A stretch of DNA of 64,000 nucleotides from Arabidopsis thaliana (Eukaryota; Streptophyta; Magnoliopsida; Brassicales; Brassicaceae), in the NCBI RefSeq assembly GCF_000001735.4, contig NC_003074.8, forward strand, positions 8,122,101 to 8,186,100. The letters are read 5' to 3'. Numbering within the stretch: the stretch's first letter is position 1; every line of letters starts with the position of its first letter. The translations under genes were made by a program, and so were the position numbers. The notes under the pieces are model-generated. The model worked only from the letters and a program-made list of their open reading frames with translations. It made no database searches and was not told the origin of the DNA. Below are positions 7,620-10,606 of this stretch, piece after piece.

Positions 7620-7715
7620 ATGAAACTTGCTCGTCAGATTGAAGCAATGACGATCTCTCATCTTCCAACGGAGTTGTTAGGCCAAGTCCAACGCCACGGG
7701 AAAACGTTAAAATAA
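7620..7715 (+). pseudogene. Detached 5' coding end of the F-box gene
   Basis: In-frame ATGs at 7620 and 7647 open a frame ending [10 protein letters not shown] at 7679, the usual start of plant F-box proteins. The Harbinger-type element begins at 7680. Reading on into the element adds 11 codons and stops at 7713-7715. The next gene codons ([10 protein letters not shown]) are found after the element at 9374, in the same frame once the element and one TTA copy are removed. Confidence 0.88.
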
Positions 7716-8168
7716 CGTGGGCATGTTTACTTTTTCACTCCAATCAGACAGTATAATTTGCACTATAATAGTGTGATTCTCTTTTTTTTACAGTGTAACA
7801 CTATATTTGGTGCACTATTATAGCCACGGCAAATATTAAAATAATAATTTTTTCTTTTGTGTTAACATTATTATATATTAAAATAGCTTATTTAGTTATA
7901 ATAGATTATATATGATTTGTAATGAGATTTAAGTAATCTAACTAAGGCTTGTAACTAAAAAATAATTTATAAGTACTATTTTTGTAATCTTTAATGTAAT
8001 AAAATGATGGATTAGTAGAAAATATTAAAACTAATACCGAAGTTGATTGAAAATACAATAAAATAAATTATACATTTATAACATAATTAAAAAATTTAAA
8101 CCACACAAACATAAAAACTAAATGCAACGAGATATGTTTTAAAAACATAACAAAAGCTTCACAAATGG

Positions 8169-8750
8169 TTAAGGAAAATTATTTCCGGTTCCGCTAAGAT
8201 AATTATAATATTGGGTAAAATCTTCTTGGTTATTTGGTGATCTTTGGTCTTCACCTTGATCCGGTTCTCCTTGAACTTGTTTTCCATGAAATGGACTTTC
8301 TTGATAATGAGATGCTCGATATTGAGATCCATGATATTGGGAGCCTTCACCATCTTCTTCATGTTGGTTTGTTTGCGCTCTTTTTTCCAAAATTCTTTTT
8401 CTCTCATTTTCAATATATGCACGAGAGGATGGATCAGTTATAGAATTCAAATCTGCAAATAATATTTTATTCTCTTCTTTCATTCTAGCTACCTCGATCT
8501 TCTGCCTTTGAATTTCATTTCTTTCAGAAGTACCTTTAGTAATAGCTTTGATAAGTTTATCATTTTGCTCCAAAAGTTGTTTAAACTGTTCTTCAGATTG
8601 TTGTTTTCGCTTTGCTTTTTTCAAACTCATAGGCCTTGAAGATAAACTAAAATTGGCATCTTCACTATCCATATTTAGATCAATTGAATTCATACCAGGG
8701 GAAGGTGATGACTCGGTATTGATTGAAAATGATGAAGATGACGTAACGGG
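8169..8750 (-). pseudogene. Harbinger accessory protein (Myb/NAM-associated type), C-terminal part
   Basis: The minus frame reads about 194 residues: a Ser-rich acidic stretch, SLSSRPMSLKKAKRKQQ, a charged helical region (EQFKQLLEQNDKLIKAI, then RQKIEVARMKEENKI), and a Gln/His-rich tail. This matches the C-terminal domain of the second protein of plant PIF/Harbinger elements, whose N-terminal Myb/SANT-like DNA-binding domain is missing. The frame to the right of about 8750 is antisense of the transposase piece and not real coding sequence. The role in intact elements is helping the transposase enter the nucleus and bind the ends. Confidence 0.75.
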
Positions 8751-8754
8751 GCCA

Positions 8755-9030
8755 TCACGCTTATGGAATAAAACAATATTACATGATATAATGACATCTT
8801 GTATCATAATGCATAATATGATCATCGAAGATGAGCGTGATATTGATGCACCAATTGAAGAACGGGTCGAAGTTCCAATTGAAGAAGTTGAGATGACGGG
8901 TGATGATGATACTCGATTTCAAGAATTTTTGGCTCGGCACCGACAAATTAAAGACCGAGAAGCTCATATTGAACTTAGAAATGCTTTAATTAAACATTTG
9001 TGGTCGCAATATACTAATTCTGAGAATTAG
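8755..9030 (+). pseudogene. Harbinger transposase C-terminal fragment
   Basis: The plus frame reads LWNKTILHDIMTSCIIMHNM, then IEDERD, FLARHRQIKDREAH and a terminal HLWSQYTNSEN before the stop at 9028-9030. IIMHNMIIEDERD is the hallmark end of plant Harbinger DDE transposases. Only about 90 residues remain, and the Asp residues of the catalytic triad lie in the deleted part. There is no start of its own. Confidence 0.85.
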
Positions 9031-9367
9031 TACGATGTAATTTATTTTTATTATGTTTGGTTTATCGATTGTAATATTATATTAATTAATGAAGAATAAA
9101 ATAATATGTTGTGTTTAATTAAATAATATGTTGTGTTTCTTTATTTTGTATTAAATTTGTTTAATGTAATAATTTGTTGTCTAACATTTGTTTCAATATT
9201 ATTAAGTATTTTTAAAGTATTCATATTTTAGGTTAATAATATAATAATAGAGAATAGTATTTTTAGTGTGACTTTTGGTGTTGTGGTTGGAGATGAAAAA
9301 GAATTTAGTGTGAAAATCACACCAAATATAGTGTTATTCTAACACAATTTTAGTGTTGTGGTTGGAG

Positions 9368-10606
9368 ATGCCCTTAGAAGAGATACTCTCAAGACTTCCA
9401 TTGAAGTCTACGAGAGCAGTGAGATCGACTTGCAAAAAGTGGGACTCTTTATTCAAAAATCGGAGCTTTATTAGTAAAGCAGCAGCAGCAAGAGAAGGAG
9501 AGTCTCAGATGGTCGTGTTGATGGATCACAATCTTCATTTAGTGAGCTTCTTCTTCGGCAGTGATACTTCTGTAGAGATTAAAGGTAAACGTATTTGTCT
9601 AAACGACGATTCAGATTCAGAACAAGTCAAGATATCTCAAGTTTTTCACTGTGAGGGTTTGTTGTTATGTATCTTGAAAGATGATAACTTTAGTCTTGTT
9701 GTTTGGAACCCGTATTGGGGACAAACAAGGTGGATCAAACCCAGATGTTCTTTCGAAATACCCCAGGGATGTGACATGTACAGGTACGCTATTGGATACG
9801 ACAACAAGAGACGCAACCACAAGATCTTGAGGTTTATAGATTATGAATTCCATTACCCTCGAGACAACGTTGTTTTGTGGTATGAAATCTATGATTTTGA
9901 GTCTGATTTATGGACGACTCTTGATGTTACTACTCCACATTGGTTGATAAATTGTGGTAACCGTGGTGTTACTCTCAAGGGAAACACTTACTGGTGTGCT
10001 AAAAAAAGGAACTCTGACCTTTTTCTCAATGCTGATCATATAATCTGTTTTGATTTCACAAGTGAGAGGTTTGGTCCGCTTCTGCTTTTGCCGTTTAGTG
10101 ATTTGGATGGTGTTGTTACTCTAGCTTGTGTTAGAGAGGAGAAGCTTGCGGCTTTAGTTTGTCACGAGGATGTTGTTGAGGTTTGGATTACGATTAAGAT
10201 TGAGGCCAATGAGGTATTGTGGAGCAAGTTCTTGACAGTGAATGTTGATTTGGGTGATGAGATTCCGAGTTCACTGACATATGGTAGTTTTTTCATCGAC
10301 GAGGAGAAGAAAGTTGCTATGATTTTTGATAAAACTTTGGATCGCGGCGACACAGTTCACATCATGGGAGAGGCTGGATATGGTGGACAAGTTGATCTCG
10401 GAGAACCGGTTAATAAAAGACGTTGCCCACTTGTGTGCTCTTATGTTCCGAGTTTAGTGCAAATCAAGAAACCTGCAGGATTCCAAAGGAAACAGCAAAG
10501 CAAGTTAGAAAAGCGTCAATATGTTCGAAACATATCGAAACTTCGCGCACTTAAAACCCAAAGTTCTTGGACATTAAGTATGTCACTTGAATGTCATCAA
10601 CAGTAA
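9368..10606 (+). CDS. F-box protein with FBA domain, N-terminally remade by a transposon
   Basis: Intronless, 412 residues from ATG 9368, by recall the putative F-box protein At3g22940. Residues 2-40 carry the F-box remainder [20 protein letters not shown] and [12 protein letters not shown], which would bind SKP1/ASK in an SCF ubiquitin ligase. The F-box-associated region includes [42 protein letters not shown] and GNTYWCAKK, typical of the large Arabidopsis FBA family that binds substrates. The ATG and Pro codon belong to the terminal inverted repeat of the inserted element. The native first ~11-20 codons are at 7620-7679, so the first F-box helix is shortened by the residues before LEEIL. 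No downstream frameshift is seen. Expression without its old promoter is uncertain. Confidence 0.85.
   Translation: [412 protein letters not shown]

Follow-up and report, generated by a model that had tools for sequence, protein, structure and literature searches.

A recent PIF/Harbinger-type insertion in an Arabidopsis thaliana F-box gene places a transposon ATG in frame with the severed coding sequence

Transcription starts and first exons derived from transposable elements (TEs) are widespread in Arabidopsis, according to the text of PMC10241880, and miniature inverted-repeat transposable elements (MITEs) may supply a gene with its stop codon or its end, as described for 19 Arabidopsis accessions in the text of PMC5454002. 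The term 'start codon' is absent from the main text of a plant MITE review (PMC12595863). In the openly licensed literature, judged by search listings, no precedent was recognised for the end of a DNA transposon serving as a start codon; for F-box, transposon insertion and start codon combined, nothing on the gene considered here was found by title and opening of the abstract. Here we describe an F-box/FBA gene of Arabidopsis thaliana that was split near its start by a PIF/Harbinger-type element, the right end of which carries an ATG in frame with the remainder of the gene. The locus lies in a window of 64,000 bp (C3:8122101-8186100), which is the whole stretch of DNA analysed and to whose first base all positions refer. 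Genome-wide counts refer to the 119.66-Mb genome that contains it, and those of sequence patterns are possibly lower bounds. The features of the locus are as follows:

7400-7619, + strand: old promoter and 5' leader of the F-box gene, now severed from most of the open reading frame (ORF) (TATA scan, inverted-repeat list).
7620-7679, + strand: native start (ATG at 7620 or 7647) and first codons, ending ...HLPTELL (matches paralogue L010).
7677-7679, + strand: left copy of the target site duplication TTA, an in-frame Leu codon (sequence).
7680-9373, + strand: internally deleted PIF/Harbinger-type element of 1694 bp, with the deletion junction at ~8747 (sequence, BLAST blocks).
8169-8747, - strand: remnant 3' part of a NAM-associated (ORF1-type) gene, left of the junction (PF14303).
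8747-9030, + strand: C-terminal remnant of the transposase, matching the final 35 positions of Plant_tran (171-205/205; PF04827).
9031-9367, + strand: AT-rich right end, on the 3' side of the transposase gene (composition, splice and ATG scans).
9368-9373, + strand: ATGCCC of the terminal repeat, Met-Pro from the transposon, in frame with the F-box ORF (sequence, ORF list).
9374-9376, + strand: right copy of the target site duplication TTA, a Leu codon (sequence).
9368-10606, + strand: 412-residue ORF with a truncated F-box and an FBA_1 domain (ORF list, Pfam; gene name by neighbours).

A first-pass annotation of this DNA had placed the element at 7680-9373 inside the F-box gene, flanked by a TTA duplication, and this was borne out base by base. 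The element begins with GGCCAAGTCCAACG... on the left and ends with ...GTTGGAGATGCCC on the right, as read from the sequence. The insertion split the promoter, the native start and the first codons from the rest of the F-box/FBA gene, cutting off 10 codons (counted from the ATG at 7647) or 19 (from the ATG at 7620) and leaving 410 downstream. When the native frame is read on from 7679 into the element, a stop is reached after 11 further codons. No intron was apparent in the frame of the gene.

The ATG at 9368-9370 sits in the terminal ...GGAGATGCCC of the element; CCC and then TTA come next. As had been proposed, the ATG-Pro of the right terminal repeat is in frame with the 412-residue ORF, which runs from 9368 to 10606. 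An exact match to the 16 bases GTTGGAGATGCCCTWA was found at 25 sites genome-wide, and GGAGATGCCCTTA was found at 28; the backwards-read control gave 0 in both cases. The ATG-bearing right end is present in three related copies of the element (the C1, C2 and C4 copies) and has been lost in a fourth (the C3 copy). The ATG is a recurrent feature of the right ends of this family, in a share of ends that is indeterminable because the search patterns contain the ATG, leaving ends without it, such as that of the C3 copy, uncounted. At the TAA-type exact ends the frame stops right after Met-Pro in 13/13 cases. All of the 28 TTA-type sites were read, 16 of which matched 13 bases only and are unverified as transposon ends; the frame extends for 412 codons at the present locus, the next longest being 42, 34 and 33 codons, and this was the only site with a long open frame. 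Many right ends of the family, carrying ATGCCC beside the target site, are portable start codons, for which an in-frame TTA opens the frame and a TAA closes it immediately. A 23-base repeat, TTTTGGTGTTGTGGTTGGAGATG, occurs at 9273-9295 and again at 9348-9370, such that the terminal sequence, including the ATG, recurs with 1 mismatch 75 bases inside the right end.

The chance of such a capture was estimated from the empty-site coding sequence (CDS), in which 9 of the 42 TTA/TAA trinucleotides lie in codon phase 0; the ATG is on one of the two element ends. If all 42 sites are taken as equal targets, an in-frame ATG is expected in ~11% (~1 of 9) of the insertions into this CDS. The in-frame capture is lucky, not improbable, given the nine sites in phase 0 and one suitable orientation of two.

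The first-pass annotation also held that dropping the element and one TTA rejoins the F-box frame. The joined flanks do read through. The closest paralogue, L010, lies on the same chromosome, with 68% identity across the aligned protein, and agrees without a gap at the join; its DNA is 77% identical to the joined flanks from the start region onward. The empty-site frame is thus supported without recourse to a second accession. Of 29 paralogue loci examined, 24 had a readable start, and LP followed by xxL stands at the same place in 20 of these. The Pro of LPxxL is lacking in L017, L028, L035 and L036, all 4 of which have an in-frame stop in the match. It is kept in 15/15 paralogues of a protein alignment drawn from the 29 loci, from which the omitted loci include those with in-frame stops or missing starts. 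As the joined flanks and most paralogues share the same start layout, the F-box gene was uninterrupted before the insertion. The ratio of nonsynonymous to synonymous substitution rates (dN/dS) was 0.58 against L010, 0.54-0.64 against six chosen paralogues and, for all 21 pairwise comparisons of seven chosen genes, 0.53-0.75; these values describe the family before the insertion. Elsewhere, five places in C1:8769843-8836679 match the F-box protein with one and the same score and identity (49%); with 3 of the 4 gaps measuring ~14.4 kb, they likely represent a recent tandem array. Two further F-box paralogues, L037 and L038 (C5:14436347 and C5:14495647), lie ~59 kb apart with identical N-terminal sequence and score, and are likely a recent duplication.

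The element is non-autonomous, with no intact transposase gene found within its 1694 bp. The C1 copy measures 3743 bp, the C2 copy ~3.8 kb and the C4 copy 1.9 kb, and the ends of the C3 copy are degraded or lost. The C1 and C2 copies match the window element in two blocks, both ending at element position 1068; in the C3 and C4 copies, too, the left block stops there. In the C1 copy, a stop-to-stop frame of 417 codons contains DDE_Tnp_4 and the full Plant_tran profile (1-205/205); a second, NAM-associated gene (PF14303) lies on the opposite strand, the two genes diverging from the centre. The window element is 2049 bp shorter, without the centre and the 5' parts of both genes; the size of this deletion (~2049 bp) is the length difference 3743 - 1694, and its junction was taken from the BLAST blocks. 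The remnants were recognised by Pfam with E 2.2e-21 (PF14303, ORF 8172-8918) and E 4.7e-12 (PF04827, 8512-9027). Only the two 3' parts remain, so that the right end standing in front of the F-box ORF corresponds to the 3' side of the transposase gene. Across 9031-9373 the GC content is 21.6%; AATAAA occurs once in the right end, at 9095, and AATAAT several times. Terminal inverted repeats are present (GGCCAAGTCCAACG / GGGCATCTCCAACC), and are short and imperfect. A TTA duplication was found on both sides of the window, C1 and C2 copies; the flanks of the C4 copy are mismatched, with TAA on the left and TTA on the right. At L048 (C1:16777900-16779800), pieces of related elements in both orientations lie within 1.9 kb, which suggests neighbouring or nested copies.

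To the left of the F-box ORF lies an EF-hand calmodulin-like gene and to the right are an Arf GTPase gene and a pyruvate kinase gene (Pfam scan). In the text of published reports, AT3G22930 is a counterpart of poplar calmodulin-type genes, AtARFC1 is At3g22950 and AtPKp1 is At3g22960. From this consecutive numbering of the neighbours, we infer that the disrupted F-box gene is At3g22940 of Arabidopsis thaliana.

The sole published trace of At3g22940 found in the openly licensed literature is PMC3499479, the text of which reports 341 F-box cDNA clones, some of them earlier and others obtained by reverse transcription PCR (RT-PCR) from DNase-treated RNA. At3g22940 is not on the list of earlier clones given there. 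The existence of the clone suggests a transcript over the ORF, the 5' end of which is absent from that text; genomic DNA left over after the DNase treatment could pass for cDNA, the ORF being intronless. In yeast two-hybrid analysis, At3g22940 is reported to bind ASK18 and ASK19, the N-terminus of the clone not being given in the text. Binding to ASK proteins is not automatic, since 201/341 F-box proteins in that study bound none, whereas several ASK proteins, ASK18-19 included, are described there as preferred partners of the FBA-type class. Overall, the text of PMC3499479 gives moderate support to a transcript and to a functional F-box remainder, not to a start at 9368.

The first-pass annotation had described only the first F-box residues as lost. 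The start of the domain is indeed truncated, and the description was an understatement, the lost part being the LPxxL start (Pfam positions 1-8/43). A complete F-box including LPxxL was not found in the transposon-start form, which begins at profile position 9. The F-box Pfam score falls from 39.5 bits for the 70-residue empty-site join to 26.2 bits for the 63-residue transposon-start N-terminus. In the whole protein, PF00646 scores 22.6 bits against a cut-off of 20.5 (profile 9-41/43), and an F-box domain is thus still recognised. In the alignment with 15 paralogues, the transposon Met-Pro falls beneath the family's LP, with three residues missing; this is a chance likeness in a different register. 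A Foldseek search listed 50 matches, mostly beta-propellers (Kelch, WD and others), with a TM-score of at most 0.56, and querying solved structures with the sequence of the paralogue yielded a single chance-level match (E 0.36).

Use of the transposon ATG as a start codon is plausible, with a probability of about one in two, and we give the same to the joint reading of a young insertion, weak transcription from the right end, a usable first ATG at 9368 and a 412-residue protein with a damaged F-box. A non-autonomous PIF/Harbinger copy inserted itself at a TTA codon close to the beginning of the F-box/FBA gene. Its right end finishes in ATGCCC and, orientation and phase being suitable, the severed frame now begins with Met-Pro on transposon DNA. 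Weak transcription from the AT-rich right end would then give a message with 9368 as a usable first ATG, and this message may yield the 412-residue protein, its F-box damaged yet recognisable. On this reading, the arrangement arose by luck from a recent and otherwise disruptive insertion, and selection had no part in it as an innovation.

With regard to the message, a transcript starting within the element and read-through from the old promoter had both been envisaged in the first-pass annotation. Both stand as routes, although they are unequal, read-through being the poorer. A native element promoter was rejected as the driver: the two genes of the C1 copy diverge from a centre that has been deleted here together with the 5' parts of both genes, and no native promoter is therefore expected; a cryptic one may exist. 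A transcript starting within ~9170-9367 would meet at most one short upstream ORF (uORF) ahead of 9368 (ATG 9293, 6 codons). As read-through is obstructed, as detailed below, and at most this one uORF intervenes from ~9170 on, the AT-rich right end (~9170-9367) is ranked first as the likeliest place for a cryptic transcript start. It is also the likeliest place for use of an acceptor at 9232.

The recurrent ATG-bearing right end, the PF00646 score above the cut-off and the near absence of uORFs count in favour of a start at 9368. Several points weigh against it. The start is deduced from the DNA, not from RNA 5' ends, ribosomes or peptides. With the divergent centre missing, only a cryptic promoter could serve. 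The sequence around the start codon at 9368, GGAGATGCC, provides no more than a moderate context. PF12937 drops from 35.3 bits in the empty-site join to 19.8, below its cut-off of 24.3. Residues 1-43 of the window protein have a predicted local distance difference test (pLDDT) score <50 in AlphaFold. As most of the F-box of the intact paralogue (residues 15-51) is modelled equally poorly, AlphaFold was set aside as uninformative on the fate of the F-box.

Over its 1694 bp, the window element carries 10 private substitutions (8 in the left block, 2 in the right), scored at positions where at least two of the C1, C2 and C4 copies show the same base. The total difference from the C1 copy is 16/1068 in the left block and 6/627 in the right. 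With 7e-9 mutations per site per year, the private changes put the age of the insertion at ~0.84 million years or less, an upper limit because part of the private change may precede the jump; if methylated DNA mutates faster, the age would be lower still. A. lyrata split off several million years ago or more, and the younger insertion should thus be absent from it. The ~7 changes expected in 1236 bp would rarely create a stop, the nonsense share of point mutations in the ORF being 4.0% (with an assumed transition bias; point mutations only, with indels outside the estimate). The open frame was therefore rejected as a signal of selection, the insertion being too young and the nonsense share too low for it to be evidence.

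The same figures suit the alternative that the insertion killed the gene, leaving a fresh pseudogene in which the in-frame ATG is coincidental, maybe made into a gene model, and no protein of note is produced. About 11% of insertions into this CDS are expected to yield an in-frame ATG; with 10 private substitutions per 1694 bp (at most ~0.84 million years) and a 4.0% nonsense share, the frame would likely be open with or without function; and the F-box has lost its conserved LPxxL start. This account is at odds with the cDNA reported from DNase-treated RNA and with the binding of its product to two ASK proteins in yeast (as given in the text of PMC3499479), and we consider it possible, if somewhat doubtful.

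Alternatively, the old promoter could still drive the gene, with a transcript from before 7620 in which the element is spliced out or bypassed and the native N-terminus, or a variant of it, is kept. The region is unbroken up to the element, with TATAAA at 7437 and a GGCCCA-type inverted repeat at 7491-7527, both of which we take to have promoter roles. The acceptor at 9232 lies at the 98th percentile, and Harbinger is among the elements enriched in TE-associated splicing events in Arabidopsis, according to the text of PMC10241880. However, no splice donor above the 80th percentile of window GT sites was found in 7560-7800, the range covered by the scan, and the acceptors at 9293-9420 reach at most the 65th percentile; the matrix used was not trained on this genome, and the scan is weak evidence either way. 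Between 7601 and 9368, unspliced read-through would meet no fewer than 41 ATGs, the two native ones (7620 and 7647) among them, and its path crosses AATAAA/AATAAT signals at 9095-9243. We regard this route as improbable. Slightly less probable still is translation from Met 48 (9509), the next in-frame ATG, which would give an FBA-only protein with the F-box gone, not expected to bind ASK proteins, yet binding to ASK18/ASK19 is reported in the text of PMC3499479, subject to which clone was made.

A rewiring of the E3 adaptor in one stroke was also considered, in which the loss of LPxxL and the gain of Met-Pro would drop the common ASK1-type partners and favour the rarely used ASK18/ASK19, leading to a pollen-linked SCF. 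If true, a recently intact F-box gene would have moved into a pollen-linked SCF. ASK18-19 are among the partners that FBA-type proteins generally prefer in the text of PMC3499479, which counts against such a change of partners, and we give this idea the slimmest chance of all.

In the neighbourhood of the locus, the calmodulin-like gene (3421-3750, - strand) has a run of ~20 glutamines near its N-terminus. A partial second cyclophilin-like frame (13658-13981, + strand) lies beside the Arf gene; it covers 98-158/159 of the Pro_isomerase profile and looks like a fragment. It is separate from the cyclophilin ORF at 613-1347 on the - strand.

The locus is a roughly dated, base-perfect case in which one transposon has disrupted a gene and at the same time put a new start codon at its disposal; a close paralogue serves as the empty-site control. 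The case bears on whether such captured starts are translated, and on how much loss of the F-box the binding of SKP1 tolerates. Should the start be unused, the locus would warn against trusting gene models whose first codon lies in a transposon.

Compared with PIF/Harbinger (Tourist-like) elements and their deleted derivatives, the window element shares the 3-bp TTA duplication, ends of the GG(G/C)C...TCCAAC type, the Plant_tran/DDE transposase, a second gene in the fuller copies and internal deletion; the element itself shows no difference from them. It is longer than a typical MITE and, unlike one, retains the 3' remains of both genes. The gene shares the F-box and FBA_1 domains of the A. 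thaliana F-box/FBA_1 family, and its dN/dS of 0.58 falls within the family's 0.53-0.75; it differs in lacking the LPxxL start and in that its ORF opens with the transposon Met-Pro. With the chimeric TE-gene transcripts described in the text of PMC10241880 it would have in common TE sequence at the 5' end of the transcript, often an alternative transcription start. Those transcripts were seen in long-read RNA, whereas the present arrangement is read from genomic DNA, and here the TE would give the start codon too. The MITEs described in the text of PMC5454002 likewise are MITE-class elements that give a translational signal to a host gene; there the signal is the last exon and the stop codon, whereas here it would be the first codon.

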